From a virus, in IMG/VR virus record IMGVR_UViG_3300037189_005924, positions 1 through 21,932 of that record: a DNA stretch of 21,932 bases; one strand, written 5' to 3'. Below, in pieces: positions 1 through 21,401 of this stretch (its first letter is position 1; each line of letters begins with the position of its first letter). A program made the position numbers and the translations under genes. The notes beneath the pieces were generated by a model. The model worked only from the letters and a program-made list of their open reading frames with translations. It did not search any database and was not told the DNA's origin.

Positions 1-477
1 CCACCAACTGCCAACATTTAATTTTTTTCTTGAAATTGTATCGCTGTGTTTAGTATATTCCGGTATTCTGTTGTAAGATAACCATTTTTGCATACGAAGT
101 CCAAAAACTTCTTGTTTGCTTCTTTGCTGAACCATTAAATAATCAACCTCTGATTTGCTTACACTTTCAGCATTTTCAGCAGTATGCTTATAAACACCAC
201 CATTTGATATTTGATAAGCTAAAACCAAAAGAACATTTTTAGCAGTTGCACGAATTAAAAAGTCAACTATAAAATCATTGTATAAAGTTAAATAATTATC
301 AGCTAAATTGTCATTCTCAAAATCGGTGCAAATCTTATCGTATAAAACTTGACCTATTAAAGGCTCTAAATCTGTTATTTGCGCATCCTCAATGCAAGGC
401 ACTATTTTATCAAAGTCAATGTTGCCATTTAAAGGCGTTTTTGCGACTACTTGCTGCGGTGTTATTAATAGTATCAT
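1..477 (-). CDS. Probable head-tail connector protein (partial, 3' end outside window)
   Basis: This minus-strand reading frame starts at ATG 477-475 (MILLITPQQVV...) and stays open for all 159 codons to the window edge, so its C-terminus is missing. It begins 8 bases after the portal stop, which puts it in the same operon directly behind the portal, the usual place of a head-tail connector. The protein is mostly helical: an acidic N-terminal stretch with DFDKIVPCIEDAQ near residues 22-34, then a central helix VDFLIRATAKNVLLVLAY near residues 71-88. This resembles the small connector-type proteins (DUF6712-like) that follow portals in Bacteroidota phages. The gene is certain. The function is inferred from position and general resemblance. 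Confidence 0.62.
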   Translation of the reverse strand, partial: MILLITPQQVVAKTPLNGNIDFDKIVPCIEDAQITDLEPLIGQVLYDKICTDFENDNLADNYLTLYNDFIVDFLIRATAKNVLLVLAYQISNGGVYKHTAENAESVSKSEVDYLMVQQRSKQEVFGLRMQKWLSYNRIPEYTKHSDTISRKKLNVGSWW

Positions 478-485
478 AATTTATT

Positions 486-2138: not shown

Positions 2139-2428
2139 TATTGATTGATTTTATAATTTTGTAAATCTGTTTGATCCGTTGCAAATGCTTTGCCTCGAAA
2201 TAGTGTATTTTCATTATCGTAAACTTCAAATTCAAAAGTGCTTCCTTCGCTTACTGTTTTGTCAAATTCAAAAGTCAAATAACCATAACTATAAACAGCC
2301 GACAAATCCTCAAAAGTTTCTTCTGTGGCTTTGCTTTCATCACGTATTTTTAAAGTAACTAAATTCGCTTCATAACGAGGTATAATAGTTACAGTTTGAG
2401 TTTCTTCTGATGGTCTAAATATTATCAT
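2138..2428 (-). CDS. Hypothetical structural-region protein, 96 aa
   Basis: A small protein rich in predicted beta strands (VTIIPRY, LVTLKIRDES, GYLTFEFD, STFEFEVYDNE), acidic, without membrane segment or signal peptide. I do not recognise the family. It is the first gene after the terminator at 2461-2497, and its stop overlaps the portal ATG, so the two should be translationally coupled. Its start is fixed by the element TCGTTATA ending 5 bases before the ATG, shared with two other late genes. A capsid decoration, spike or head-completion role would fit its place between tube and portal genes, but nothing in the sequence shows this. Confidence 0.75.
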   Translation of the reverse strand: MIIFRPSEETQTVTIIPRYEANLVTLKIRDESKATEETFEDLSAVYSYGYLTFEFDKTVSEGSTFEFEVYDNENTLFRGKAFATDQTDLQNYKINQ

Positions 2429-2441
2429 ACTAATATAACGA
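2429..2441 (-). promoter_or_regulatory. Conserved start-proximal element TCGTTATA, copy 1
   Basis: On the minus strand the bases before the ATG at 2428 read TCGTTATATTAGT. The 8-mer TCGTTATA occupies -13 to -6 and is preceded by a T-run. The same 8-mer at the same distance precedes the genes starting at 5133 and 12960. It may be a late promoter element read by the phage sigma factor, an operator or a translation signal. The sequence does not decide between these. Confidence 0.5.
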
Positions 2442-2460
2442 AAAAAAAATATTTTGATAC

Positions 2461-2497
2461 AAAAAAAAAGTCAGCATAACTTAATACGCTGACTTTT
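2461..2497 (-). terminator. Intrinsic terminator after the tube-type gene
   Basis: Read on the minus strand: a 10-bp perfect stem (AAAAGTCAGC at 2466-2475 pairing with GCTGACTTTT at 2488-2497), a 12-base loop, and an uninterrupted run of T from 2469 to 2461. This is a textbook rho-independent terminator about 20 bases past the stop of the 178-residue gene. It separates the capsid/tube block from the portal block, so the portal genes need read-through or their own promoter. Confidence 0.85.
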
Positions 2498-2516
2498 ACA
2501 TTTATTTTAAAAAAAC

Positions 2517-3053
2517 TTAATCGTTTACATATTGGTCAGAAACCAAAGCAAGTAAAGAAGTTACTGCTGAACTTGATAAAATTGGAGCAGTTTCAGGCTC
2601 TAACGCTTGTAACGTCATTTTCAATCCGTAGAAATCACCTAAAGCACCACCTAATTCTCTTGTTCCTGTTGTTTTATCAGCACCATTTTTCAATCCAATA
2701 GCGTGATAAGTTCCGTTGTTATCTTCCAAAAATATCAACATTCTATCTCTTGAAAGCAATTTAGCTTGATTAACTAAAGCAGCAGTTAAGCCGGTTAACA
2801 TCAAATTTAATTGACTATCATAAAAAATAGTTCCGTTATCTCTTGAAGCTGTTTCAGTTTCAACATAAGTGTTACCTGTATTTTTCAATTCAAATTTAAA
2901 AACTTCATCTAAAGTTCCCAAACCTGTAAGTTCTGAATTAACTACCGTTGCACCAATATCTGAAAATGGAGCAAAAAAGGCATTAACTAAACCACCTGTA
3001 AAATTTTTGCATTCTAAAAGTCTGCCGTTTGTTATAAATTCACACGCTGCCAT
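2517..3053 (-). CDS. Probable tail tube or other abundant structural protein
   Basis: A 178-residue protein with the layout I associate with a common Bacteroidota phage structural family: a short Cys-containing N-terminus (MAACEFITNGRLLECKNF), a GGLVNAFFAPF motif near 20-30, beta-rich middle segments (VFKFELKNTGNTYVE), and ending in SSAVTSLLALVS. The segment MLIFLEDNNGTYHAIGLKNG (104-123) is also characteristic. Such proteins are usually proposed to be the major tail (tube) protein. It follows the capsid gene and is bounded by two hairpins (3072-3094 and 2461-2497), as expected for a highly expressed structural gene. The family recognition is from memory and the tube role is inferred. A head decoration protein is the main alternative. 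Confidence 0.55.
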   Translation of the reverse strand: MAACEFITNGRLLECKNFTGGLVNAFFAPFSDIGATVVNSELTGLGTLDEVFKFELKNTGNTYVETETASRDNGTIFYDSQLNLMLTGLTAALVNQAKLLSRDRMLIFLEDNNGTYHAIGLKNGADKTTGTRELGGALGDFYGLKMTLQALEPETAPILSSSAVTSLLALVSDQYVND

Positions 3054-3071
3054 TATTATAATGTTTTAAAT

Positions 3072-3094
3072 AAGGCGGTATTTTCAACCGCCTT
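3072..3094 (-). terminator. GC-rich hairpin after the major capsid gene (partial terminator)
   Basis: A perfect 8-bp stem, AAGGCGGT (3072-3079) with ACCGCCTT (3087-3094), and a 7-base loop lie in the 49-base gap between the capsid and tube genes. On the minus strand it is followed by TTATTT only, so termination would be leaky. It could lower downstream transcription or protect the 3' end of a capsid mRNA. Confidence 0.6.
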
Positions 3095-3102
3095 GTTATT
3101 TA

Positions 3103-4017
3103 TTAAACTGTGTAAGTTGTGTATAAAACAACTTCTGCACCTCTTACATATTGTACTCCTGCTGTGTAAACCATTTTGTAACGAACTGTTCCGCTCAAAT
3201 CAGTATCATCCATGTCTTTAACACGCACTTCATTATGATCAGAAAGCAAACCTGTTCCAAAATATAAGTTTTTCTTTTGGTAAACTACCATAGTACTTGC
3301 AGGTAAACCATTGATAACTTCTAAAACGTAAGTTCCATAACGTAATTGAAAATCTTCACCACCAAAACCTGCGTTGATACCTGCTCCGATTAATGCTTGT
3401 TGGTAAAACAAAGCCACATCAGCAGAAACTGCAAATACTAAATCTGATTTTCTTCTCAAAGCAACAGGCACAGCAGCCATAGTAGCCTCGATTTTAGAAA
3501 TTACATTTGCTTTTGTAATAGCAACAGGAGATGCTACATCAATTACAGTTGCATCACCTAAAAATGCAGGAATGAATCCATCAAAGTGACCATCGTCAGT
3601 AGCCTCACCAATCCAAATATCTGAATCAGTAGCTTGTGCTGTATCAGCTAAAATTTCAACTAATAATGCAGCTTCCTCATCAACCGGCATATTGTCGTTG
3701 TGAGCAGAGAAACCCATTGAAGCAGTATCCCATACATTTCTGAAATCTTCTTTACAAAGTTCAGCTTCGTTTTTGATTTTCTTTGGCTCTAAAATTACCT
3801 CGTCAAGTGTTACACTTCCCGCAGGAGTGAAACCACAAGAATAATCTGTTCTACCATTACCGTAATCAATTTTACGGATTACTTGTTTTACAGGAATATT
3901 TGGTAAAATTGTTACCAAACCTCTCTGAATAGTGTCTGCTTCTTTAAAAGCTTTCCCTATAATTTCACCTGCCACCGTTCCTGCATAGGAACTGTTTACT
4001 GTTGTTGTTGTTGCCAT
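3103..4017 (-). CDS. Major capsid protein (HK97-fold type)
   Basis: A 304-residue protein of the Bacteroidota phage major capsid type, the subunit of the icosahedral shell. It lies directly downstream of a fused protease/scaffold gene, the standard context for HK97-fold capsid proteins. Visible features are a polar N-terminus (MATTTTVNSSYAG), an E-loop-like segment rich in charged residues around 65-95 (TLDEVILEPKKIKNEAELCKE), a middle region with KANVISKIEATMAAVPVALR (about 168-187), and a beta-rich C-terminal half ending VRGAEVVLYTTYTV. It lacks the long N-terminal delta domain, in keeping with scaffold function being carried by the preceding gene. The start is preceded by a 10-A run, a usual A-rich initiation context for this phylum, 6 bases after the previous stop. 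Confidence 0.85.
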   Translation of the reverse strand: MATTTTVNSSYAGTVAGEIIGKAFKEADTIQRGLVTILPNIPVKQVIRKIDYGNGRTDYSCGFTPAGSVTLDEVILEPKKIKNEAELCKEDFRNVWDTASMGFSAHNDNMPVDEEAALLVEILADTAQATDSDIWIGEATDDGHFDGFIPAFLGDATVIDVASPVAITKANVISKIEATMAAVPVALRRKSDLVFAVSADVALFYQQALIGAGINAGFGGEDFQLRYGTYVLEVINGLPASTMVVYQKKNLYFGTGLLSDHNEVRVKDMDDTDLSGTVRYKMVYTAGVQYVRGAEVVLYTTYTV

Positions 4018-4023
4018 TTTTTT

Positions 4024-5133
4024 TTAGTTTTTATTTTTTAATTCTGTTAATGATAATGCTAAACGCCCTTTTAATGTTTTTGGTTTTTCTGTTGTAACTT
4101 GTAATGGTGCTACTTTTGTTTTTGTTACCGCAGGAGTTTCAGAAAGTTCAACTTTTAAAGTTTCGTTTTCTTTAATTTGCTCCGATAATTTAGTTTCGAT
4201 TGCTGAAAATCTTTGCTCTAAATTCTCATTAAATTTAATAAGCATTGAACTAATAGCATTTTTTAAATCTGAAACCTCATTTGTGTTTACTGATGCAGGA
4301 GCAGCCATTTCTTCAACAGGTGCTTCAACTACTTCTTCTTCTTCTTTTGCTGAAATCTCTGCAATTATGCCAACTTCTGCAACTGAAATTTTAGTTCCAT
4401 CGTTAAGGATGTACTCTCCAATCGGAGCAGGAACATTTCCATCAGGAGTTGCAACTGAAATAGTGCCTCCAATCTCCGGCATTTCAGTTTCTGTTACCAA
4501 TGTTAAACTGCCATCTTCTGTCTTCCATTCGGCCAATTTAACTTGTTTGCATAAAAGAGTCTTAAACTCATTTAGCAAATCATCTTTCATTTGTTTAAAA
4601 TCCATATTTACTTTTGTTAATGTTACTTTTTCGTCAAACATACCTTCTATTGAAAATCCGCTTCCGTTATCTTTACACAATTGCCATTGCTCTTCATCTT
4701 CTATTTTCATAGCCACAACCCAACTGCCAACAGGCGCATCAATTCCGTATAATGCTGTCTTATCTTTTTCTAAATCTTCAACAATCCAACTCTCTACTAT
4801 TGTGCCATTCAAAGTATATTTAGAATGTTCCAAATTTGCATTACTTTGATTGCCTTTTTTAAGATACAATTCCGAGGCACGTTTTATTGTTTCTTTAGAA
4901 AAATAAACATAGTACTCTTCCTTTGTTTTTTCGTCAAATCGATAAATCTTTTTTTCGGGAATCAATGCAACCCCTAATAAAATTTTCTTTTCATTATCGA
5001 TTTTTGCAAATTGTACTTTTTTTTCATCTGCCAAAGCAATAAACTTGCTCTCCATGGCCGGAGATCCAACTACCGAAATGCAGTCAATCCCTTGTATTTC
5101 TTCATCCGATAAAAATAACTCGTATGTTTTCAT
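4024..5133 (-). CDS. XkdF-like capsid maturation protease fused to scaffold domain
   Basis: A 369-residue protein in two parts. Residues 1 to about 170 match the XkdF/Peptidase_S78-like serine protease of phage heads: NANLEHSKY with candidate catalytic His103, VESWIVEDLEKDKT (113-126), GSWVVAMKI, and GFSIEG with candidate nucleophile Ser161. Residues about 175-285 are acidic and low in complexity. Residues about 285-335 form a coiled coil (AISSMLIKFNENLEQRF...), as expected of an internal scaffold that guides capsid assembly and is then cut out. The tail is basic (LKGRLALSLTELKNKN). It lies immediately before the major capsid gene. The start is supported by the TCGTTATA element at the same spacing as in two other late genes. 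Confidence 0.83.
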   Translation of the reverse strand: MKTYELFLSDEEIQGIDCISVVGSPAMESKFIALADEKKVQFAKIDNEKKILLGVALIPEKKIYRFDEKTKEEYYVYFSKETIKRASELYLKKGNQSNANLEHSKYTLNGTIVESWIVEDLEKDKTALYGIDAPVGSWVVAMKIEDEEQWQLCKDNGSGFSIEGMFDEKVTLTKVNMDFKQMKDDLLNEFKTLLCKQVKLAEWKTEDGSLTLVTETEMPEIGGTISVATPDGNVPAPIGEYILNDGTKISVAEVGIIAEISAKEEEEVVEAPVEEMAAPASVNTNEVSDLKNAISSMLIKFNENLEQRFSAIETKLSEQIKENETLKVELSETPAVTKTKVAPLQVTTEKPKTLKGRLALSLTELKNKN

Positions 5134-5146
5134 AACTATATAACGA
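5134..5146 (-). promoter_or_regulatory. Conserved start-proximal element TCGTTATA, copy 2
   Basis: On the minus strand TCGTTATATAGTT directly precedes the protease/scaffold ATG at 5133. The 8-mer is at -13 to -6, as in copies 1 and 3. It is preceded by a long A-run in the 39-base gap after the tape-measure gene. This position could mark the start of a separate head-gene transcript. Confidence 0.5.
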
Positions 5147-5172
5147 TTTTTTTTTTTAGTGATATATTTTTT

Positions 5173-7275
5173 TTATCCAAAAGTTGATGTAGCCACCGCA
5201 TTACGGTCAAGAGATTGCTGTGTGCTTACTTGATTACCCACGACATAAGTTTGTATAGGTCTATTTTGTTGCCCTGCAATTGTTTGACTTAATTGATTGG
5301 TTGAACTTTGACCTACGATATTAAATTGTGGCGGAGCAGGTGAGCTTCCACCACCGCCACCTGAAACAGAAGAACCACTTGAAGCACTACCCACATTTGT
5401 AGACAATATTTTTCGAAGTTGTAAAGCTGCAAACACTCCCGCTAAAGATGCTTGTACAACAGGATATGCAGGGAATCCTACTGTTATTGGTGATTTTTGA
5501 GCAGTTGAGTAAGCATTTTGAACACCCTCGATTCCACTAATTGTAGCCTGTGCAACCGCAACCGCTTTTCCTATTTTAGAACCCTTCCCTGCTATTTCAG
5601 CAACTAAAGACAATCCTTGTTGAGCGAAAGCTAATTTAGCACTTAATAAGGCTTGTTCTTTTTGTTTAGCATCTTCTTTAGCTTTATCGTCAATATCACC
5701 TAAATCCTTTTCAAGTTTCTTTTTTAATTCTGTTTGTAATGCTGCATTTCCTTCTGCCGCTAAATACTCTGCCTCATATTTTTGGGTTAAAACAAGTTTT
5801 TCATACTCGCTTTTTTCCATTGACAATTCTTGTAATCTCAACCACTCAGCATCTTCTTTAGCTATTTTTTGTTGTGCTAATTTTTTGTCTAATTCTAATT
5901 GAAGATTAAAATATTTTTCGTCTAATAATGCTTTTAAATTTGCTTTCTCATTTTTTGTTTTTGCTAATTGATTTATTTCTTCTAAATCACGTTGTTTTTG
6001 TAAGTCAAGTTTTTCTTGTTCTGTAACTGCCGATGCATCTTGATTTGCTTTTAAATAATTAGCATATAAATCATTAAGTTTTTGTAACCTTTCTTCTTCT
6101 ATTTTAGCATTTTCTTCTGCTATTTTAGCAGCATCTTCACCTGCTTTTTTATCAATAGCTTTTTTACTTAATTGATAACCAGCTCTATCATTTAAAAGTT
6201 TATTTATTGTTTCTTGTGATGCTTTTACTGCTGCATCTCCATCTTTTTGTACTTTATCTGGGTCAAATGCTAATTTAGCTATATAGTCTACTGCTTTATC
6301 TCCAAGTTTTTCATCAATATTATATTTAATATCAATGCCCGGAATTTTATTCATTAAATTAATAACTTTATTAATTACAGTTGCATAAGTTTCATAAACA
6401 GTTCTTATTGGTGTAGATATAAATTCAATATAAGATTTTAATAAATCAAAATTTCTTTTAGCACCTTCAACTGCTAATTTTGTATTTAATTTTTGATTTT
6501 CTTGGTTTATTTGATTTGCAGATATTGCTTCGTCAGTTTGTTTAATTTTAATATCTAAAATTTCTTTTTCTGATTTACCTTGAAGTTTTAAAATATTATC
6601 TTGACTATCTATTGCTTTTAACTTTTCATTTTCTTGGTCTACATTTTTTTGAGATAATGCATTTAATTTTTTTTGTTCTACACTTACACCACTAACTGCT
6701 TCTTTTATATCATCCCAATATGCATAAATAGTACCAGCAGCAACAACAAATGCCCCAATACCAGTAGCTATAATTTCAGTTTTAATTCCTTTCAAAGCAT
6801 CTACTGCTACCGCTTTTAATTGCTTAAAGCTATCTCTCGCCTCTCCTAAAGTTTGTAAACCTTGAGCAATAGCCATAGCAGACTGAACTTTTAAAAGTTG
6901 TTTTTCTAAGTCTTTAGATTCAACTCCTACCAAACCCATAGCACCTTGATAAGCTGCAAATCCTCCAGCTACTCCAGATAATGACGCACTTAATGCCTTG
7001 AATTTTGCATCTGGATTAAATGCCTCTGTAAGACTTTTAGCGTCTCCGATTCTGTCTTTTAAATCTGCTGCTCTTTTTGATGCCTCTACTGCCTCTTTTG
7101 AAGTTGCTCCGAACTTATCAGATAAGGCCGCTACTTCAGCTTGTGCCTCACGTAGTTGAGTTTTTAAAGACTTGGCTGCCTCCTCGGTTTTTTTAAAATT
7201 TTGAGTAAAGTTATCTAACCCGCCATTGGCACGTACAACATCAACATCTATTTCAATCGTTTTCTTAATCGCCAT
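5173..7275 (-). CDS. Tape-measure protein
   Basis: A 700-residue protein with the character of a siphovirus tape-measure protein, the rod inside the tail that sets tail length and is ejected with the DNA. The N-terminal region (about 20-85) is helical with heptads (KTEEAAKSLKTQLREAQAE). Residues about 165-190 are hydrophobic (GIGAFVVAAGTIYAYWDDI). A long charged coiled coil covers about 375-555. A hydrophobic segment follows at about 565-630 (GKAVAVAQATISGIEG), then a Gly/Ser-rich linker near 640 and a Gln/Asn-rich end. It is on the small side for this class. It overlaps the start of the upstream 51-residue gene by 28 bases. Confidence 0.8.
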   Translation of the reverse strand: MAIKKTIEIDVDVVRANGGLDNFTQNFKKTEEAAKSLKTQLREAQAEVAALSDKFGATSKEAVEASKRAADLKDRIGDAKSLTEAFNPDAKFKALSASLSGVAGGFAAYQGAMGLVGVESKDLEKQLLKVQSAMAIAQGLQTLGEARDSFKQLKAVAVDALKGIKTEIIATGIGAFVVAAGTIYAYWDDIKEAVSGVSVEQKKLNALSQKNVDQENEKLKAIDSQDNILKLQGKSEKEILDIKIKQTDEAISANQINQENQKLNTKLAVEGAKRNFDLLKSYIEFISTPIRTVYETYATVINKVINLMNKIPGIDIKYNIDEKLGDKAVDYIAKLAFDPDKVQKDGDAAVKASQETINKLLNDRAGYQLSKKAIDKKAGEDAAKIAEENAKIEEERLQKLNDLYANYLKANQDASAVTEQEKLDLQKQRDLEEINQLAKTKNEKANLKALLDEKYFNLQLELDKKLAQQKIAKEDAEWLRLQELSMEKSEYEKLVLTQKYEAEYLAAEGNAALQTELKKKLEKDLGDIDDKAKEDAKQKEQALLSAKLAFAQQGLSLVAEIAGKGSKIGKAVAVAQATISGIEGVQNAYSTAQKSPITVGFPAYPVVQASLAGVFAALQLRKILSTNVGSASSGSSVSGGGGGSSPAPPQFNIVGQSSTNQLSQTIAGQQNRPIQTYVVGNQVSTQQSLDRNAVATSTFG

Positions 7276-7403
7276 CTTTTTACTGTTTTAAATAATTCTT
7301 TATAAGTTCTTGGGTAACGATAAGCACCTTTTGCAAATTCTATATTTTCGCTTCCGTTATAAAAATCCATTGTGTTTAATAATTCTACTAACTTCCCTAT
7401 CAT
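7248..7403 (-). CDS. Small tail-region protein, 51 aa
   Basis: A reading frame starting at ATG 7403-7401, whose first bases form an ATGA overlap with the stop of the 822-residue gene, a classical coupling arrangement. It codes for 51 residues (MIGKLVELLNTMDFYNG... ending WRLRKRLK) and ends with TAG at 7250-7248, inside the start of the tape-measure gene. It fills what would otherwise be the only sizeable gap (124 bases) in the tail gene block. The product is basic at the C-terminus with aromatic residues in the middle (GAYRYPRTYKELF). I do not recognise it. Its place just before the tape-measure gene invites a tail-assembly role, but that is only positional. Confidence 0.6.
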   Translation of the reverse strand: MIGKLVELLNTMDFYNGSENIEFAKGAYRYPRTYKELFKTVKRWRLRKRLK

Positions 7404-9868
7404 TGTGTTTGTGTTATTGTTAATGTAAAAGTGTCAAGTCCGATAACAACATCTAATTCCATGCTTCTTTCTAAAAGCGGATTTGTTATTGCAGCTGTAT
7501 ACTCTGAAACTTTAATTAAAAGGTAAGCACTTGTATTTCCGAAAGTATTTTCTAAATCAACCCATCCAACACCATCACCTGTATCAACTTTTGTAACTAC
7601 ATAAGGACTATTCGCAAGTATTTTCAAATCATAATCTTGCGCTCCACTTGTAGCAAATAATTCTGTGTATTGAATGCCATTATCAAATGGTGAATATTGT
7701 GGCAAATAGTAATAGGTAGCATCCGCACTTATTTCAGTTGTATCAACCGAATATTCAATAGTATCAACTGTAATCGGTATGATTGAATTTATACTTTTAT
7801 AAGGCGCACCGATATAATTCAATAATTCATAATTTACCTCGCCTGTGGTAAGATTAGAACGCATTGAATTAATTATATATGCCCTATCGCTTATTTGTAT
7901 CCTATCATTTAGATTAATATCTATAATTTTGCCTATTGGCAATTGCGCTCTGTAATTACCTAATCGTCTTTTTGTTGAATATAAATCAGAAATATAATCC
8001 TCCCAATAGTTGCTGAATAAATTGTTTGTTATTTCAGAATATAAAAAAGTGGATATATCCGCAGAAAAGTTTACCGATTGTGTAACTTGGTCAAAATTAC
8101 TATCATTTTCAGTTGATGTAAACCAAGTATAATCTAAATCAGAATGGCCATCTGCCTTAATTGGTAAATCATAAAATTGATAACCTGCACGATAAAACAA
8201 ATAAGGCTTTCCGATATAAGGCTGTAAAGTTTTGTCAATAGATTTTCCAACTTGCACGTTTGTGATATCGTCTGTTGATCTATCAGTTAAACGCTCAAAC
8301 ATTAAGTTATCAAACTGCGTTTCAACTTTCAATTCACCGCCATCAATATCGTATGTCGTAGCCAAATCTCCATAACCTAAATCAAGACCATTGTTTTCTC
8401 TAAATTGTTCGTTGAGTATTTGCCCCGATTTTTGATGTTTAAAGTCTATTCTTTTAAATAGCTTTGGTTTTTTAATTGTAATATCTTTAGTATCTATGTA
8501 TTTGGTAATATCAACTAATTTACCCTTACTATACCAATCATCCAAAGGAATAAAAGAAAAGGTATTATTCGAAATTGGTGTTAAAACCAAATTGAACATT
8601 TTTATAATTGAAGTAATAAAATCTCTAACTTTTAATTTTGGTATTTGTTCAGATATTTTAAAAATCGAATTAGCTGTTGTTTGACTTGCTGAAATTGCAG
8701 TTAAAACTCTTAATGAAATTAAATCAGGCGGATAATCAGGCGGATAAAAACTTATTAGACCGGTATAAACTAATTGAGATGTAAAAGTTAAATTACCGCC
8801 TATACTTGAAACTTTAAAAGTAAATAAATGATTTGATGAATCTTTATTTTCTGTGTTTTCGAATATTGTAGTATTTGTAGTTTGAAATAAGTTATTATAA
8901 GTATTATATAAAACACCATTATCAAAAACTTCTAAAATGTAAGGATAAGGAGATGTTGTAATTATTTTTATTTTAATCCTTGCAAATTTATTGTATTTTC
9001 TTATATTTAAATCACTAAAATTATTTTCCCAATCTACAGCAACAGAATTAGTAGTAATATTAATTTCCGGACTTGGAACACTCCAAGCTTCAGTATTTAT
9101 TGTTAAACTTGTATAATCTATACTTAATGGTGTTGAAAAAACTTTTATTTCGCCTGAATAAGAATGCAACCACATAAACAAATTGCCAAAAGCAGCACGA
9201 TTTAAAAACTCCCTATCAAATAAAATATTATATTTATTTTCTATTGCTTCTAATATTCTAATGATTCTTAAAGCAGGTTTTAAATCGGTGTATTTTATCT
9301 CACCTAAAACATTTGTAATATCATCCGTATTTCCTGTTCCAATTTGAAAGTTTCTAATGCTTGAAATCAACGGATAATAAACATCCCCATTATTTATACT
9401 TTCATTTTGAGTTGCATTGAAAACAATGCTTCTTGTAAAATCATGGTCAAACTCTGACAAGTCTAAAACAGTCAAGTCATCATCTCCAAAACTATCAGAT
9501 AGGTTTACTACTTTAGAAAAGAAACGAATTGTGTAACTTGTAGGTTGAGCATTTTTTAATTTAACATCTTCCAATTGAATAAGACCAAATCTAAATGGCA
9601 AACTACCAATTTCAATTAACGAGCTTACACGAATGTTAGGGTTAAAACTTCCATCGACATCAGAATTATAATAGTGCTGAAATATTCTATTATTTGTATC
9701 ACTTGCCGGAACTGTAAAACTTTGACTAAAATCGCTGAACGTTTTTGAAATATCATTTATATTTTGAACGCTTGAATTTAACTCAAAGTTTTCATCCTTG
9801 AATAAATCAACCTTTATAAAATTATCGGGGTTATTTATATCTTGTATGTATAGGTTAGTTCCTATCAT
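7400..9868 (-). CDS. Large tail structural protein (probable distal tail/baseplate)
   Basis: An 822-residue protein, the largest in the window. Its N-terminus (VDLFKDENFELNSSVQ near 20-35, then FSDFSQSFTVPASDTNN near 43-59) is a signature I associate with large tail proteins of Flavobacteriia siphoviruses. The segment GSLPFRFGLIQLEDVKLKN (about 88-106) fits the same family. The rest is beta-rich with a mix of Ser/Thr/Asn and ends in VIGLDTFTLTITQTQ, suggesting a C-terminal beta domain that could be surface exposed. It sits among tail genes upstream of the tape-measure gene in transcription order. A distal tail, hub or receptor-contacting role is likely but not specific. No catalytic motif is visible. 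Confidence 0.65.
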   Translation of the reverse strand: MIGTNLYIQDINNPDNFIKVDLFKDENFELNSSVQNINDISKTFSDFSQSFTVPASDTNNRIFQHYYNSDVDGSFNPNIRVSSLIEIGSLPFRFGLIQLEDVKLKNAQPTSYTIRFFSKVVNLSDSFGDDDLTVLDLSEFDHDFTRSIVFNATQNESINNGDVYYPLISSIRNFQIGTGNTDDITNVLGEIKYTDLKPALRIIRILEAIENKYNILFDREFLNRAAFGNLFMWLHSYSGEIKVFSTPLSIDYTSLTINTEAWSVPSPEINITTNSVAVDWENNFSDLNIRKYNKFARIKIKIITTSPYPYILEVFDNGVLYNTYNNLFQTTNTTIFENTENKDSSNHLFTFKVSSIGGNLTFTSQLVYTGLISFYPPDYPPDLISLRVLTAISASQTTANSIFKISEQIPKLKVRDFITSIIKMFNLVLTPISNNTFSFIPLDDWYSKGKLVDITKYIDTKDITIKKPKLFKRIDFKHQKSGQILNEQFRENNGLDLGYGDLATTYDIDGGELKVETQFDNLMFERLTDRSTDDITNVQVGKSIDKTLQPYIGKPYLFYRAGYQFYDLPIKADGHSDLDYTWFTSTENDSNFDQVTQSVNFSADISTFLYSEITNNLFSNYWEDYISDLYSTKRRLGNYRAQLPIGKIIDINLNDRIQISDRAYIINSMRSNLTTGEVNYELLNYIGAPYKSINSIIPITVDTIEYSVDTTEISADATYYYLPQYSPFDNGIQYTELFATSGAQDYDLKILANSPYVVTKVDTGDGVGWVDLENTFGNTSAYLLIKVSEYTAAITNPLLERSMELDVVIGLDTFTLTITQTQ

Positions 9869-11274
9869 TATTGTACGTTATTTATAATGTCAAATGAATA
9901 TTTAAAGTTAAACGAATATTGTATTAACTTGTCATTTAATTGCGTTTTATATGCTACTGATTTACTCTCTAAATTAACCGGAAGTATCTCGCCATCTTCA
10001 ATAAACCATTTCTTCTCTGACAATAGCATTTGTTTTACGTTCTCATTTTCTTCTTCATTCAAATAATCAGTATTGCAAATGATTGCGCTTCTTCCGTTTA
10101 AATTAAAAGTGCTGTATTGGTGATCCGTTGTATTATAAATTCCGAAATTAGAAGTTAATCCTCTGTAATCTTCGCCATCAACATCGTCTGTTATTTTATT
10201 TACTAACGTAAGAAAAAACGATTGTGGAAATCCGAACTTATTTATAAATACACAATTGATAACCGGATAAATACAGCCATCTAAAACATCGTAAGTAATT
10301 GTTCGAGTTTCATCCTCATAAACAAACTCACAAACTATAACATCATCAGTATCGTAGTCTTTTAAATTTATGCTTTGAATGTACTCTGTATTCAAATCCA
10401 AATTGGCAGTAATAGTAATTGCATCACCATTAACTTCCAAAGAAGTCAATCCATCAGTTATAAAATAAAGCCTATTATCATTATCTCTGAAATGTCTTTG
10501 ATTGTTGTTAGAAATTAAAACTTTGCTTGTTAATTGTGGATTGAAACCCTCGTTAAAATAGCCATAACCATACATCGCTAAAAGTGTTCCATCAACTTCA
10601 AAAACTTGGTCGTTATAATCAAAGCACAAAGCGTTATATTTTACCCAACAAGTAGCATCGGGTTGAGTTGGCTGAACTCCTGCCAAAAGATAATTATCAA
10701 TGCTTGGATTTGTATTTTCTTTTATTAAGTGATTAATGTCAAAAGATATTGTGCTTTGCCCTAACTGAACAACTTGCTTTGATAGTTGATAGTTTGGTAA
10801 TGTTGGTAATGTATTTACATCAGGACTATACGCAAAGAACTCCATTGTTACAGTATCAAATAAAACGTTTGGAGTTATGCGAAAAGAATAAGTGCTTCTT
10901 ACTAAAGCATAAGTCAATGGCAGCTCAACATTGGTGTTAATTATTTCATAAGTAATTCCGGCAGTTCCGCTGTAACTTATATTGATATTTCCTTCGCTTG
11001 AATTGTCAGGATCAACATCACAACTAACTATATTATCTTCTTTACTAAAACTAATGTAATCGGGAACTGTAAACGCTTGTAAATAGGTAAGTAAATTTGT
11101 TGCTGAAGCGTTAGCATCAACACCAATTAATATATCATCTGAATTTACAGGAGTGGTTTTAAAAACCCCACTAAAATAATTGGTTTGATATTCGCTAACC
11201 ACATTAACGGAAAACAAAAAACTCGTTCCATTTGTAGGGTTGCTATCTAAAATTATATTAAGCCTTTTGCCCAT
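9868..11274 (-). CDS. Tail structural protein, 468 aa, function unknown
   Basis: A 468-residue beta-rich protein without signal peptide or membrane segment. Short Ig-like or fibronectin-like stretches are suggested by strand/turn alternation (NISYSGTAGITYEII, TVTMEFFAYSPDVN), and many Asn/Asp/Tyr residues are present, as in phage tail surface proteins. Its stop and the next ATG share position 9868, and its own ATG lies inside the end of the gp10-like gene (17-base overlap), so it is tightly embedded in the tail operon. Its size and place next to the 822-residue tail protein suggest baseplate or tail-tip function. The exact family is not recognised. Confidence 0.6.
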   Translation of the reverse strand: MGKRLNIILDSNPTNGTSFLFSVNVVSEYQTNYFSGVFKTTPVNSDDILIGVDANASATNLLTYLQAFTVPDYISFSKEDNIVSCDVDPDNSSEGNINISYSGTAGITYEIINTNVELPLTYALVRSTYSFRITPNVLFDTVTMEFFAYSPDVNTLPTLPNYQLSKQVVQLGQSTISFDINHLIKENTNPSIDNYLLAGVQPTQPDATCWVKYNALCFDYNDQVFEVDGTLLAMYGYGYFNEGFNPQLTSKVLISNNNQRHFRDNDNRLYFITDGLTSLEVNGDAITITANLDLNTEYIQSINLKDYDTDDVIVCEFVYEDETRTITYDVLDGCIYPVINCVFINKFGFPQSFFLTLVNKITDDVDGEDYRGLTSNFGIYNTTDHQYSTFNLNGRSAIICNTDYLNEEENENVKQMLLSEKKWFIEDGEILPVNLESKSVAYKTQLNDKLIQYSFNFKYSFDIINNVQ

Positions 11275-11797
11275 CTTCTAAACTATATTTTAAAAACGAT
11301 TCAACATCTAATCCGTATGCTTCTAATATTGTGTCATCTAATCCTTTAAATCCAACTGCAAAGGCATCAGTAAAAAACAAACTTGGCCTTAATCCTGTAT
11401 TGAATATCGACCTTCTAATATTAAAAAGCATTTGTGATCTACTTGCAAACTTGCCATTTGCTCTCGGTGCTATTCCTTTTCTAATTACCCAAGCATTAAT
11501 AGCAGTTTTAAACATTCCTTTCGGTGCTGTTCCTGTTCCAAATTTATAGGGGCTGTTTGGTGCTTTACTACTTGACCTTGCGCCCTTAACTCCCAAGTCT
11601 TGAAACGTTCCATAATCTTCCATTGAAAATGATAATTGAAAGCTATTAGGACTTACTTTGTAATCACCACTAATTGACTTCGATAAATTGCCTGTTGCGT
11701 TTTTGCCTTTACGTGCTAAATTTGTACGTGCATTTGAAACAACCTCGTTTATAAATTGCTTCAATGCTATCTCCGTATTTTTTTGACTAACAGACAT
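11258..11797 (-). CDS. HK97 gp10-like neck/tail-completion protein
   Basis: A 179-residue basic protein. The motif SFSMEDYGTFQDLGVKG (about 56-72) matches the core of the HK97 gp10 (minor tail/neck) family, in which a strand with Y..F...G..G follows an N-terminal helix. The N-terminal helix (TEIALKQFINEVVSNARTNL, 8-27) and a basic central region (KGIAPRANGKFASR) fit a ring-forming neck or tail-completion protein. The neighbours fit too: a terminator-like 151-residue protein upstream (11-base overlap) and tail proteins downstream. I would rank this as a good family call, with the precise role (head-tail joining or tail completion) inferred. Confidence 0.68.
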   Translation of the reverse strand: MSVSQKNTEIALKQFINEVVSNARTNLARKGKNATGNLSKSISGDYKVSPNSFQLSFSMEDYGTFQDLGVKGARSSSKAPNSPYKFGTGTAPKGMFKTAINAWVIRKGIAPRANGKFASRSQMLFNIRRSIFNTGLRPSLFFTDAFAVGFKGLDDTILEAYGLDVESFLKYSLEDGQKA

Positions 11798-12242
11798 TGA
11801 TTTCGTTGTTAGGGATTATCAACTCTAATTCAGTTCGCCACCCATCCAACAAGTTCATATCTTCAAAAATAATAGGAGTTAAAATAGGAATATTATTTAG
11901 TTCAATCTTATCAGCATTATTTTGTAATCTTAATTTTGTAACCAATCTATTTAGAACAGCGTGGCAGGTGTTAAGATTATCCAACTCGTTATCGTTTTGC
12001 AACCATTTATCAGTCACTATCTTTTTACTTATATTTCTCAAATCAACCACAGCAACCTCAAACGTAAAAGATATAAATTGATTGTCAGCAGTTGAAGATG
12101 TAACTTGCAAATGCGCCAAAGGGAATACATTTTTTTTATTTATATCCATCCCCGACTTTAATCCATGTACAATAGTATGAACATTGACATCCTCTTGGAG
12201 CAACTCTTTTAGTAATTCAATCGTTAAATAAAATCCTCTCAT
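11787..12242 (-). CDS. Probable tail-terminator/neck protein
   Basis: A 151-residue protein that begins with an N-terminal helix (FYLTIELLKELLQED) and has an HTIVHGLKSGMDINK stretch followed by FPLAHLQVTSS (41-51) and alternating strands (FISFTFEVAVVDL). The ending (WRTELELIIPNN) is typical of small alpha/beta proteins such as tail terminators of the lambda gpU / HK97 gp11 type. This place beside a gp10-like gene is where such proteins usually occur. Its ATG overlaps the TGA of the preceding -1 reading frame (ATGA), evidence that the -1 frame is really translated. No sequence motif proves the role. Confidence 0.58.
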   Translation of the reverse strand: MRGFYLTIELLKELLQEDVNVHTIVHGLKSGMDINKKNVFPLAHLQVTSSTADNQFISFTFEVAVVDLRNISKKIVTDKWLQNDNELDNLNTCHAVLNRLVTKLRLQNNADKIELNNIPILTPIIFEDMNLLDGWRTELELIIPNNEINVC

Positions 12243-12505
12243 TTGTTATGCTTTTTAATCATTTCAGTTGCGCACTCTGCCTTTTCTTTTTCAAACTCCA
12301 ATATCCTTAACGTTTTTGTAATTGAATATTCCAATATTTCTTCTTCTTCTTTATGGTTCAATTCTGCTAAAGCTCTGATGCTAACATACCATCCCCATTT
12401 TGCGTTAAATAGGCTCTCCCTTGTTTGCTCTTTTTCAAAATAGACATCGAATAGTCCACTGTGTAACTTCCTAAGTCGTTCAGTAAAGCGAAAAAAAAAG
12501 CACAC
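12239..12505 (-). CDS. -1-frame extension of the upstream gene (probable frameshift product)
   Basis: An open frame of 88 codons in the -1 frame relative to the 197-residue gene; the frame is open from about 12520. It has no ATG except very near its end, only a GTG at 12505 inside the upstream gene, so independent initiation is unlikely. The part after about 12430 looks strongly protein-coding (SLFNAKWGWYVSIRALAEL, then ILEFEKEKAECATEMIKKH). The corresponding tail of the frame-0 protein looks random. Its TGA couples to the next gene by an ATGA overlap. I read it as the C-terminal part of a longer protein made by ribosomal -1 frameshifting, or as a gene split by a recent indel. Confidence 0.65.
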   Translation of the reverse strand: MCFFFRFTERLRKLHSGLFDVYFEKEQTRESLFNAKWGWYVSIRALAELNHKEEEEILEYSITKTLRILEFEKEKAECATEMIKKHNK

Positions 12506-12960
12506 GCCCCCAAATAATATTCACTTGGAGCATCTTTAAATATTTCATGCGTTCCTGTATAAGGAGCAATATCATAAAAAGGCTCTGTCTTTTTAAACCA
12601 ATTGCGCTTAAACTTTACAACAGGTCGATATAATATTGACATCGCTTTGTAAAACGTTTCCGGCTTTGACATATACATTTCCAAATCGATATATTCAGCA
12701 GTCGAAAGATTATCCAACTTTGGAATGAATCCATAATGAACGCCTTTGTAAATAAATCTGCGATAAAAATTAGGATTGCTATTTAAAGCATTTGTAACTA
12801 TTTCACTTATCTCTTGAAAGTCTTTTAACTGTAATAGATTTGTGTTTTCAATTTCACAAAAGATTGATACTAAATCATGATTAGATTGCTCCGAGTTTTG
12901 AAACTCTACAAATTGATTTAGTGTAATATCCTGTAATGTTGTTGGTATGTTTATCTTCAT
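12367..12960 (-). CDS. Tail-region protein, 197 aa; frame-0 product of a two-frame gene
   Basis: A 197-residue protein starting with the beta-like MKINIPTTLQDITLNQFVEF and followed by mixed alpha/beta sequence. A hydrophobic run (YYLGACAFFFALLNDLG, about 148-164) sits near the point where the -1 frame opens. Its start is set by TCGTTATA 5 bases upstream. After residue 177 (SMSILKK) the frame-0 sequence becomes unlike a protein, while the -1 frame continues with well-formed sequence. Two-frame expression is the hallmark of tail-assembly chaperones, though these normally lie next to the tape-measure gene, and here the gene directly follows large terminase. I regard chaperone as a hypothesis and two-frame coding as well supported. 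Confidence 0.65.
   Translation of the reverse strand: MKINIPTTLQDITLNQFVEFQNSEQSNHDLVSIFCEIENTNLLQLKDFQEISEIVTNALNSNPNFYRRFIYKGVHYGFIPKLDNLSTAEYIDLEMYMSKPETFYKAMSILYRPVVKFKRNWFKKTEPFYDIAPYTGTHEIFKDAPSEYYLGACAFFFALLNDLGSYTVDYSMSILKKSKQGRAYLTQNGDGMLASEL
12430..12499 (-). other. Candidate -1 frameshift region (T9 run and GAAAAAG)
   Basis: Two candidate slip sites occur in the overlap of the two frames. A run of nine T (12499-12491 on the minus strand) contains the in-frame heptamer T TTT TTT at codons 154-156. Further on, TTG AAA AAG at codons 175-177 (heptamer G AAA AAG, 12436-12430) lies exactly where protein-like sequence changes frame. The T9 site is better by pairing rules and the second is better by protein content. 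The fused product would be about 240 residues from the T9 site and about 240 from the second, since both join the same frames. Confidence 0.5.
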
Positions 12961-12973
12961 ACCATTATAACGA
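12961..12973 (-). promoter_or_regulatory. Conserved start-proximal element TCGTTATA, copy 3
   Basis: On the minus strand TCGTTATAATGGT directly precedes the ATG at 12960, again with the 8-mer at -13 to -6. It lies in the 31-base gap after large terminase and is preceded by a T-run. The spacing to the ATG is identical in all three copies, which is hard to explain by chance. Confidence 0.5.
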
Positions 12974-12991
12974 CAAAAAAGCGTTTTGATT

Positions 12992-14188
12992 TTATCTAAA
13001 ATCAGATATTGATTTGCCTAATGATAAATGCTTTCTTGATTGAATAGCTAAAGCCAAACTAATAACACTATCATCATGTACTCCTTGAGGTGCAGAATAT
13101 TGAACATTTCTTGTTACTTGATTGTAGATATAAGTAAACGCTTCGAGTTCGTCTATAAGCCAATTAATATCTAAAATTGATATATCTTTTTGCTGAAACA
13201 AAACCGCTAAATCTTCAATCATTATAGGTTTTGTTTTTGTAGTTGTAACATAAGGCTCAACTAATCGTTTGCATTTCTTTTGAAGCATCTCAAAAAAAAC
13301 ATCACCTTGATTGTTTACCTCGACATAACTCTTTGCTTGATATTGATTTATAATATTAGCAACCTTATCAATTATCTTTGTCCATTCGTCTTGCCTCCAA
13401 CGCTCACAGAAAATAGTTTGATTGTTTTCGTTAACAATAGTTAAAACGGTATAATCGTCTGCTCTACCAATATCCACTCCCCCATAATATTTTTTAGATT
13501 GGTTTGGAACTGAAATACATTCTCTAACATTTGCAAATAATCCACTTGCATTATCTATAAATTGCGCTAAATATTCTTGTTTAAAAACATGATCCGGTAA
13601 AGACCTTTTCCTCTCTTCTAAATCTAAAACATTTATAAATGGAGTGTCGTAACTTGTAAAGTGAAAGTACTTATATCGATTGTCGTAGTTGGGTTGTAAT
13701 GATAATTTGTAAAAATGATTCTTACCTTTTGGAGTTGATATAAACAAAACCTTTTTACCTTTGACTAATACGGTTGCAGAAAGTACCTCGCTCCATAGTT
13801 CCTCTCTTGTAAATGCATACTCATCAATTATAAGATAGTCAAAAGTATTACCCCTAATATTATCAGGCCTCTCTCCTGAAAAAAAAGAAATAGTACTTCC
13901 AAATCCTTTGACTGTTAATTCACTTTGGTTAAACTCAAATAATCCACTATTGATTGTGGCTTTTTCAAGTTCAGAAAATACTTTTTTTCCTTGTTTATAA
14001 ATTGGAGTTACCCAAGCAATATTGCAACCACTATCATTAATACACCAATCTAACATTTGATTAATGCCTAACATTGTTTTACCAAATTGCCTACCTATAT
14101 TTAAAATATAGTATTTATACGGTTCATTCCTAATAGAATGATGTATTGATTTTTGATTCTCGTGTGGTTTATATCCTTTTATTGTCAT
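12992..14188 (-). CDS. terL: Terminase large subunit
   Basis: A 398-residue packaging motor with both domains visible. ATPase: Walker A-like GRQFGKT (32-38), Walker B LIIDE (119-123, catalytic Glu123), coupling motif FISTPKG (149-155). Nuclease: VDIGRADD with Asp239, VEVNNQG with Glu290, and HDDSVISLAL with Asp372/Asp373, giving the three acidic positions of the RNase H-like fold that cuts concatemeric DNA. It is shorter than many large terminases (often 420-550), but nothing essential appears to be missing. It overlaps the small terminase gene by 4 bases (ATGA). The protein acts at the portal in the host cytoplasm. Confidence 0.95.
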   Translation of the reverse strand: MTIKGYKPHENQKSIHHSIRNEPYKYYILNIGRQFGKTMLGINQMLDWCINDSGCNIAWVTPIYKQGKKVFSELEKATINSGLFEFNQSELTVKGFGSTISFFSGERPDNIRGNTFDYLIIDEYAFTREELWSEVLSATVLVKGKKVLFISTPKGKNHFYKLSLQPNYDNRYKYFHFTSYDTPFINVLDLEERKRSLPDHVFKQEYLAQFIDNASGLFANVRECISVPNQSKKYYGGVDIGRADDYTVLTIVNENNQTIFCERWRQDEWTKIIDKVANIINQYQAKSYVEVNNQGDVFFEMLQKKCKRLVEPYVTTTKTKPIMIEDLAVLFQQKDISILDINWLIDELEAFTYIYNQVTRNVQYSAPQGVHDDSVISLALAIQSRKHLSLGKSISDFR

Positions 14189-14589
14189 TCATCAAATTCA
14201 AACCTTGTAACTTTTACATCGTTTTGAGTTTTCTCAACGAGGTTATTTAATCGCTGTGTAATACTTGGATTATATATTCCTGCCATACCTCCTTCGATTT
14301 GGTCTTTTCTCGTGTGCTTTTTTATATATGAACAGATAGGTGCATATTCTTCATATCTATTATCTTTATTCTTTAAATAATCTCCTAAATCTTCTATAAT
14401 ATCATTGTCAGCTAACCAACATTCAAAACCTTCTATTGTAAAAGGTCTTTCTTTTTCTCTAAAAACATCAATAGCATCTTTACCAACCCAATCTTTTACA
14501 ATAAATGGATTGCTTTTGGTTTCTTTTTGATAAGCCAAAAAGTACTCTTTTAATTTTTGAGGACTTTCTATGTATTTATTTTTGCCCAT
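14185..14589 (-). CDS. terS: Terminase small subunit
   Basis: A 134-residue protein directly upstream of large terminase with a 4-base overlap. It has the pattern of the gp3-type DNA-packaging family: PQKLKEYFLAYQKE (10-23), ERPFTIEGFECWL (47-59), then a Cys-containing helix and RKDQIEGGMAGIYNPSI (93-109), which ends in QRLNNLVEKTQ. The family binds phage DNA as an oligomeric ring and hands it to TerL. The GGMAGIYN motif and the position make this a secure call. Start at ATG 14589; upstream is a 25-base AT-rich gap. Confidence 0.85.
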   Translation of the reverse strand: MGKNKYIESPQKLKEYFLAYQKETKSNPFIVKDWVGKDAIDVFREKERPFTIEGFECWLADNDIIEDLGDYLKNKDNRYEEYAPICSYIKKHTRKDQIEGGMAGIYNPSITQRLNNLVEKTQNDVKVTRFEFDE

Positions 14590-14614: not shown

Positions 14615-15031
14615 TTAAATCAATTCTCCTATGCTCCCCAACTCTTTAATAACATCGGGATTATTATCATAATGTTTTGAAATTCCCAATTCTTTAATCT
14701 TTTCAATCTTTGCTTTATTGCTTCCGGTTGCAAAGACTTTTGAATAAGGAATGTTTAATTTGTCTGCAATATCTTTTAATGTTACTTTAATGGAACGTGC
14801 TGAAATAATATATAAGTCAGAGATGGCCATTAATGCTTTTGCTTTTTCTAATCCTTTAGAATTTGTAAGAGTGCCATCATAATCAAAACTTATTTTTGGC
14901 TTTGCCAATTGAGTATAACAAACCGCCAATCTTTGCTCCTCGTTATATTCCGATTTCATTTTTTCATCAGACATACATCGAGAAATAAAATCAGTTTCAT
15001 TTTCGCCTGTGTTTGGTTTAGGAATTGGCAT
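14615..15031 (-). CDS. HAD-superfamily phosphatase with phage N-terminal module
   Basis: A 138-residue protein in two parts. Residues 1-42 (PIPKPNTGENETDFISRCM, then EEQRLAVCYTQ) form a short module that I know as a separate N-terminal tag on various phage head or packaging proteins in Bacteroidota. Residues 45-138 are a minimal HAD phosphatase: motif I FDYDGTLT (Asp50 nucleophile, Asp52), motif II Ser77 in IISAR, Lys106/Lys108 in GSNKAKIE, and an Asp in HYDNN (Asp122). All key residues are present, so it is probably active, with no cap domain, like small T4 PseT- or polynucleotide phosphatase-like enzymes. The substrate is not predictable. It lies between a Cys-rich protein and small terminase. 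Confidence 0.8.
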   Translation of the reverse strand: MPIPKPNTGENETDFISRCMSDEKMKSEYNEEQRLAVCYTQLAKPKISFDYDGTLTNSKGLEKAKALMAISDLYIISARSIKVTLKDIADKLNIPYSKVFATGSNKAKIEKIKELGISKHYDNNPDVIKELGSIGELI

Positions 15032-15357
15032 TATAAAAGCTTCTTTAGTTTATTAATAAATGACTTCCAAACTCCCGAGCAATTAGTGCAAGGATCAAAA
15101 GGCTTTACTCGGTAGCATCTAAAATAAATGCTTGAGATTTTATGTTGCATTTCTTTGTTTAGTTCCGTTGGATTTGATGCAAATAATGTAGTTAAATATT
15201 CTCTTTCATCATCTTCTAATTCCAATGCGCCAATTGGGAAAAGATTGTTAAGCTTTTCTTTTCTTTTATTGCAGCCATCACATGGCTCAATTCCTACTGC
15301 TTCGGTTATGGATGCAATTATATCTCCCGCTCCTGTAATTTTTTTACGTCTTCCCAT
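15031..15357 (-). CDS. Hypothetical Cys-rich (probable zinc-binding) protein, 108 aa
   Basis: A 108-residue basic protein with two CxxC pairs, EPCDGCNKRKEKLN (24-37) and FDPCTNCSG, that could bind one zinc ion. An IIASITEAVGI helix lies near the N-terminus. The CDGCNKRKEKLN style motif occurs in small unassigned proteins near terminase genes in Bacteroidota phages, in my recollection. Its ATG lies inside the end of the sigma factor gene (40-base overlap), and its stop touches the HAD gene start. It might be a nucleic-acid-binding accessory of packaging, which is inferred only from motif and position. Confidence 0.7.
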   Translation of the reverse strand: MGRRKKITGAGDIIASITEAVGIEPCDGCNKRKEKLNNLFPIGALELEDDEREYLTTLFASNPTELNKEMQHKISSIYFRCYRVKPFDPCTNCSGVWKSFINKLKKLL

Positions 15358-15782
15358 AGTTGTTGTTTTGTTTTTTTAACCGTTTTCTGAATCACTAAAA
15401 GATTTATACCTGTTTGTCGAGATAGTTCTCGTTGGCTCATCTCTTGGGTTGTTACTTTTAAAAGTTCACGTTCAAAAAAAGGTAATTGTTTGACTTTTTT
15501 TAATGTTATTTCTTTTATTTCGTCTAATTCAAAATCATAAGTATCAGCAAAGGTATTACAATTATCAATCAGTTCAACTGTTTTTGTTTTTTTGTCCTTT
15601 AATTTGTCGAGCCAAATGGACTTGATTGCAAAGTAAATATAAAAATCATTGACCTTTTTATCGTAGTTAGCAAATTTGAGATACATATCCTGAACAATAT
15701 CGTCAGCGGTATCGTGGCTTTTACAAATATGGAATGCCATTTTGCGCCAATCTTTATCCCGCTTTGCTAATTCTTCAAGCAT
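15318..15782 (-). CDS. Phage RNA polymerase sigma-70 family factor
   Basis: A 154-residue protein with the two sigma domains of an ECF-size factor. Region 2 covers about 10-62: WRKMAFHICKSHDTADDIVQ (core binding), MYLKFANYDKKVN and IYFAIKSIWLDKLKDKK (-10 recognition). Region 4 covers about 95-147: LPFFERELLKV, MSQRELSRQTGINLLVIQKT (helix-turn-helix) and a basic KKTKQQLW. It is the second gene of the leftward operon, abutting the gene upstream. It would direct host RNA polymerase to phage late promoters. The TCGTTATA elements before three late genes are candidate targets. No anti-sigma gene is seen. Confidence 0.8.
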   Translation of the reverse strand: MLEELAKRDKDWRKMAFHICKSHDTADDIVQDMYLKFANYDKKVNDFYIYFAIKSIWLDKLKDKKTKTVELIDNCNTFADTYDFELDEIKEITLKKVKQLPFFERELLKVTTQEMSQRELSRQTGINLLVIQKTVKKTKQQLWEDVKKLQEREI

Positions 15783-20753: not shown

Positions 20754-21401
20754 ATGAAAAACTATAATGAATTTTTAGAAAGTAAAAGAAAATCATTTAT
20801 TGAAAGTGGATTTGAAATTTCAGAAAACAAATTAAATCCTGCATTAAAAGATTTTCAAAAGTTTGGAATAAAAACTGCTTTATATAAAGGCAAATTTGCA
20901 TTATTTTTTGATTGTGGATTAGGTAAAACATTTTGCCAATTAGAATTGTCAAAACAAGTATCTATTAAGACAAAAAAGAAAGTATTAATATTAGCACCAT
21001 TGGCTATTATTCAACAAACAAAAAATGAGTCAATAAAATTTGGTATTGATTTAGATTTTTTTGATATTGATAATTATGAGCAATTAAAAAATATAGATAC
21101 TTCTATTTATTCCGGAGTTGTTTTAGATGAAAGTTCTATTTTAAAAGGTAGAGATGGTAATGATGAAAAACATATATGTCCATTGCAATTAGATACTATT
21201 GAACGAATATTACATTTATATTCTAATGAAGGCGAAACAGTTTTTAGTCCGTTTGGCGGTATTGGAAGTGAAGGATTTACAGCTATAAAAATGGGCAGAA
21301 AATCAATTAGCATTGAACTAAAAGAAAGTTATTTTAAAATTAATGAGAATAATCATAAATCAATAGTAGAAGAAAAAAGTACAACATTAACTTTATTTTA
21401 A
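20754..21401 (+). CDS. Helicase N-terminal half fused to methyltransferase C-terminal part, 215 aa
   Basis: Residues 30-131 are the start of an SF2/SNF2-type helicase: QKFGIKTALYKGKFALFFD, Walker A DCGLGKT (53-59), motif Ia ILAPLAIIQQ (79-88) and motif II LDESS (124-128). At about residue 131-137 (21144-21164) the sequence switches to the end of a beta-class N4/N6 DNA methyltransferase: HICPLQLDTIERIL (140-153), SAM-binding FSPFGGIGSEG (164-174) and IELKESYF (188-195). Missing are helicase motifs III-VI and the methyltransferase DPPY motif. Known phage proteins with these two halves are far longer, so this looks like an in-frame internal deletion. It probably is not a full helicase or methylase. 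It may be a remnant, or a new ATP/SAM-binding protein. Confidence 0.7.
   Translation: MKNYNEFLESKRKSFIESGFEISENKLNPALKDFQKFGIKTALYKGKFALFFDCGLGKTFCQLELSKQVSIKTKKKVLILAPLAIIQQTKNESIKFGIDLDFFDIDNYEQLKNIDTSIYSGVVLDESSILKGRDGNDEKHICPLQLDTIERILHLYSNEGETVFSPFGGIGSEGFTAIKMGRKSISIELKESYFKINENNHKSIVEEKSTTLTLF

Follow-up and report, generated by a model that had tools for sequence, protein, structure and literature searches.

Downstream of the terminase gene of a Bacteroidota phage, two overlapping reading frames on the minus strand both resemble coding sequence, although the second has no ATG. Are they two genes, one gene damaged in the record, or one gene whose product is extended by a programmed change of frame, and if so, where and by what means is the frame changed? 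We addressed these questions by computational comparison of the 21,932-nt record (hereafter the window, which at this length may be a fragment) with related loci. The gene starts at 12960, and its -1 frame opens shortly before a run of Ts and continues to a TGA at 12241-12239 (Table 1). A switch at this run would give a trans-frame product of 240 aa in total, with the junction ...ACAFF|FRFTERL...KWGWY..., and the -1 frame stop overlaps the ATG of the following gene, a coupling that an earlier note on this DNA had already described.

Table 1. Features of the two-frame gene and its surroundings in the window
Feature	Position	Strand	Remarks
Terminase large subunit	12992..14188	-	immediately upstream of the two-frame gene
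Frame-0 CDS, 197 aa	12367..12960	-	phrog_32199 family, function unknown
Residues 1-156 of frame 0		-	common to both products
GTG	12503..12505	-	only possible independent -1 frame start here; rejected as general mechanism
Slip site, nine-T run	12491..12499	-	GCT TTT TTT TTC in frame 0
-1 frame part of trans-frame product	12239..12493	-	84 aa after slip, KWGWY domain, TGA end
Dual-coding overlap	12367..12490	-	frame 0 gives the alternative tail of the unshifted product
G AAA AAG, second candidate slip site	12430..12436	-	rejected
Next gene, 151 aa, phrog_30964	11787..12242	-	ATG overlaps -1 frame stop as ATGA
Tape-measure protein	5173..7275	-	~5 kb downstream of the two-frame gene

The surroundings are themselves unusual. 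Within 1-14589 (minus strand) the structural module runs from the terminase through the two-frame gene and tail genes to the tape measure, and a protease gene (Peptidase_S78_2) and probable capsid and portal genes come only after it. Inspection by eye revealed a sigma-factor-like ORF upstream of the packaging genes (15318-15782, minus strand), as is orf35 (sigma-70 region 2) in Nonlabens phage P12024L, and an odd combination at 14615-15031 (minus strand) of an N-terminal MPIPKPNTGENETDFISRCM stretch followed by a HAD-phosphatase-like ISFDYDGTLT. By the same means, a 215-aa ORF on the plus strand (20754-21401) was seen to begin as the N-terminal portion of a helicase (DCGLGKT...DESS) and to finish as the C-terminus of a DNA methyltransferase (SPFGGIGSEG...), an appearance that suggests a deletion within the sequence or a join made in assembly.

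A conserved T run at the junction of two coding frames

The run in the window comprises exactly nine Ts (12499-12491) and holds both a T_TTT_TTT and a T_TTT_TTC heptamer. Nine Ts and both frames are kept in all 17 close relatives (88-97% identical), and none of them has a different T count that would give one continuous frame. Relatives at 31-42% identity were reached with the -1 part as the search query, and a search with the N-terminal part only, blind to the run, returned at least 600 loci, of which 80 were retained. All 80 carry the run at the equivalent position, 73 as T9 and seven as T10, and in nearly all of them the -1 frame encodes the KWGWY domain, in some cases in variant form. The combined set comprises 169 related loci, or 78 non-redundant ones (below ~85% identity), and an in-frame, uninterrupted NNT TTT TTT TNN with nine or ten Ts is present in 169/169 and 78/78, respectively, counts in which the relatives are phylogenetically non-independent. 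The codons at the run always read [GTT/CTT/ATT/GCT/TTT] TTT TTT T.., never with fewer than nine or more than ten Ts across the 169 loci, and all 78 non-redundant relatives carry T_TTT_TTT in the zero frame inside the overlap. Among these are two isolates, the Nonlabens phages P12024L and P12024S, in which the halves are annotated as separate hypothetical proteins (orf41 and orf39). A survey for the -1 domain in 395 genomes of the phylum returned only an already known MAG and one short match without a visible core motif.

The variable sites of the window's clade bear out the earlier claim that both frames are protein-coding in succession. Upstream of the run they fall on frame-0 position 3 (79 of 156, versus 21 and 12 at the other positions, the 12 being at position 2). 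Within the overlap (14/41, 8/41 and 2/41) they lie mostly at -1 frame position 3, i.e. frame-0 position 2, and -1 frame position 2 (frame-0 position 1) is nearly invariant with 2/41. Beyond the frame-0 stop, 17/43 are variable at -1 frame position 3. In other clades both frames are constrained within the overlap. Thus, in the window's clade codon periodicity switches frame at the T run and not at 12430, where the -1 frame had previously been thought to become coding; selection on it starts some 60 bases earlier. The proposal that frame 0 is real to about residue 177 needs a similar revision, as homology to other proteins extends only to residue 156 and the rest is the dual-coded tail. One of the two slip sites put forward before, the nine-T run, is upheld by its T9 or T10 in 78/78. 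The other, G AAA AAG (12430-12436), is conserved among close relatives but missing from L036 and from all of the more distant relatives whose sequence was inspected, and because it is absent outside the close clade it is not the slip site.

Chance is likewise rejected as an explanation of the run. De-duplicated, the remaining ORFs of these loci amount to 401 kb, in which synonymous shuffling predicts 15.9 T runs of at least nine and we found none; by register, the count is 0 against 8.2, 3.6 and 4.1. The frame-0 tail past the run has a median length of 56 codons versus six expected given the -1 protein, its length in the window alone being non-significant (p 0.14). Runs of at least nine As are also strongly depleted in the coding regions of related loci (L002-L216; 14 versus 49.7 expected).

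Could the -1 part instead be an independent gene that initiates by itself, as the annotation of the Nonlabens phages has it? The GTG at 12505 would permit this in the window, but before the core motif the -1 frame lacks ATG in 75/78 members and lacks ATG, GTG and TTG alike in 52/78, which excludes a separate start in those 52; in some relatives an upstream -1 frame stop lies two bases before the run. With selection on the -1 frame beginning at the run and with homologues in which the parts are fused (see below), we regard a separate gene as very improbable. An error of sequencing or assembly in the homopolymer, or decay of a pseudogene, is harder still to entertain: T9 runs are error-prone, and a homologous gene in Flavobacterium phage 6H is broken by small indels relative to near-identical relatives, but the same run and the same frames recur across many independent contigs and two isolates, and purifying selection acts in both frames. 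Comparative evidence shows that the two frames are translated in succession and joined at the T run, and it supports the view of this run as a real, deeply conserved and unannotated recoding site. The frameshift proposed earlier is strongly supported by comparison as a -1 switch, a term that covers ribosomal and transcriptional slippage alike, and we put the probability that such a switch at the nine-T run yields both proteins from one gene at about 0.92.

Homologues with one continuous frame

Homologues in which both parts form one continuous protein, which the earlier note had suggested looking for, exist as single-ORF proteins of 270-301 aa in cultivated Flavobacterium, Cellulophaga and Bacteroides phages. 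The entry point was a weak match to Flavobacterium phage 6H in a structure search with the frame-0 model. Compared with 23T and FPSV-F7, gp10 of 6H (L220, NC_021867, 9990-10927) is broken up by small indels, and as the gene is a single open frame in these near-identical phages (293 aa in the record read), the 6H gene was discarded as another frameshifted case; the indels carried by its record are probably sequencing errors. Further homologues occur in laban6-1, Cellulophaga phage Ingeline (three genes before the tape measure), Bacteroides phage BT-TP2, Polaribacter phage Leef and Microcystis phages.

Profile comparison with hhalign aligned the trans-frame product with the single-ORF homologues end to end over 242 columns (E 1.6e-13). 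By contrast, the alignment of the frame-0 profile ends at the slip site (E 2.6e-9), and the frame-0 tail gave no alignment to them. The -1 domain alone aligned with the C-terminal columns 205-296, at a score of 27.6 versus a maximum of 18.1 in 20 shuffles. Because the trans-frame protein spans the single-ORF family and the frame-0 protein stops at the slip site, it is the trans-frame product that corresponds to the ordinary single-ORF protein. What is special to the slippery lineage, on this comparison, is the shorter product, and the lineage may have evolved from a single-ORF ancestor. With the long form as their sole product, the single-ORF homologues show that some phages manage without a second one. 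This single-ORF family comprises phrog_25418 proteins and relatives in Duneviridae and other Bacteroidota phages (Flavobacterium FPSV-F7, 23T and laban6-1, Cellulophaga Ingeline, Bacteroides BT-TP2), with which the trans-frame product is homologous and collinear over its full length; the difference is that their reading frame is continuous, with a longest T run of 5-6 and no long alternative frame in the single-ORF genes examined. Synteny of the following gene with those of the single-ORF relatives was not significant by profile comparison.

Function and known two-frame systems

A structural or tail-chaperone role is suggested by the architecture of the gene: comparative evidence indicates that, as in tail chaperones, a single start serves two products and the frame changes late, towards the 3' end. 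On the other hand, the gene is not found where such chaperones lie, adjacent to the tape-measure gene with the major tail gene on the other side; it adjoins the terminase, as had been pointed out before, and two small and two large genes separate it from the tape-measure gene. Phage_TAC_7 (Pfam) matched a single member of 78 at a marginal E of 0.022. The phrog_166 'tail protein' profile matched 25/78 weakly (best 6.8e-5) and at shifting profile positions, and with such inconsistent alignments we rejected it as proof of tail function. AF2 models (pLDDT 86 and 80) predict an all-helical -1 domain and, for frame 0, helices in the N-terminal region together with a hairpin and a long helix at the C-terminal end. 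Sequence and fold searches of the PDB returned no match for either part, and the best viral fold match named tail assembly chaperone reached an E of only 0.55.

Like lambda gpG/gpGT and HK97-type chaperones, the gene belongs to the tail module and has one start, a late -1 switch, an extra C-terminal domain on the long product and no obvious need for an RNA stimulator. Unlike them, it yielded no sequence or fold match, follows the terminase directly with ~5 kb, four sizeable genes and one 51-codon ORF before the tape measure, has an overlap of ~25-70 codons and possesses single-ORF relatives. With P2 E/E+E' (T_TTT_TTG; PMC3091744) it shares a T-rich heptamer, the -1 direction and the lack of a downstream hairpin, but it has nine or ten Ts where P2 has six, and the Phage_TAC_7 match is marginal. 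We therefore liken the pair to G/GT without filing it as a member, given the lack of a PDB match, the marginal family matches and the position away from the tape-measure gene. By this analogy, we lean towards a role for the two products resembling that of lambda gpG/gpGT or P2 E/E+E', as tail-assembly factors whose ratio is controlled. A different parallel is offered by bacterial slippage genes (Thermus dnaX A9 and Shigella mxiE; PMC1088944), which also have a coding homopolymer of at least nine and two products; here, however, the gene lies in a phage structural module and a perfect ribosomal slip heptamer is also present.

Ribosomal or transcriptional slippage

At a -1 switch in the T run, most transcripts would be read straight through to give the 197-aa protein with its own tail, and a fraction would be read one base back to give the 240-aa protein ending where the next gene starts; the unshifted form would presumably be the more abundant. 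The step itself may be a -1 slip of the ribosome on U_UUU_UUU with no help from an RNA structure, to which we give slightly better than even odds. In its favour, a perfect heptamer stands in phase in every member. No consistent folding signal for a downstream stimulator emerged in 25 members, z scores scattering around zero, and phage P2 slips at T_TTT_TTG without a hairpin (PMC3091744), as tailed-phage frameshifts can do without stimulators (PMC5009743). The rival, which concerns only this sub-step and not the -1 switch, is that the change occurs in the transcript, RNA polymerase adding one U or omitting two at the nine or ten Ts, and that normal translation then gives the long product, a serious contender that falls somewhat short of an even chance. 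For this rival speaks that the run is never shorter than nine although a ribosomal heptamer needs 6-7 Ts, an unbroken A/T stretch of at least about nine being present in 78/78, and that many bacterial genomes begin to avoid A/T runs once these reach nine (PMC1088944). Other ORFs contain no T run of at least nine in any of the three registers, no conserved downstream structure was found, and the sole clade with GCT before the run regains the ninth T on the other side (TTC). Moreover, L040-type and L078-type lineages keep TTC though TTT would be synonymous in both frames, which may cap the run at ten. Against it, the residues required on either side (V/L/I/F before the run, L/F of the -1 frame after it) largely account for the flanking Ts, and the tail-chaperone switches described in the literature consulted are ribosomal. 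In addition, in-frame T_TTT_TTT heptamers in other ORFs (24 versus 53.6 expected) are somewhat more depleted than the other T7-T8 registers (29 versus 41), a difference that is not significant but hints that ribosomal slipping matters too. Amino-acid constraints on both sides can account for much of the run length, so that we rank ribosomal slippage as the more likely of the two by a modest margin.

Frame switching is a known phage trick, here with an unusually long and strictly kept slippery site. Two unlinked families of 'unknown function', phrog_32199 and phrog_38404, thereby become one recoded gene, now linked to a single-ORF family in cultivated phages, and in hundreds of contigs from aquatic phages gene callers probably break it in two or cut it short. 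The protein exists both with and without the shift, so the way in which a programmed frame switch arises is open to study, and the strict nine-or-ten T rule makes the choice between ribosome and polymerase testable in the isolated phage P12024L. It is conceivable, if somewhat less than probable, that this large Bacteroidota phage family, descended from a single-ORF ancestor, uses programmed RNA-polymerase slippage on T9-10, alone or together with ribosomal slippage, to make its second product; if true, polymerase slippage would provide control of a protein ratio in phage tail assembly at the level of the transcript.
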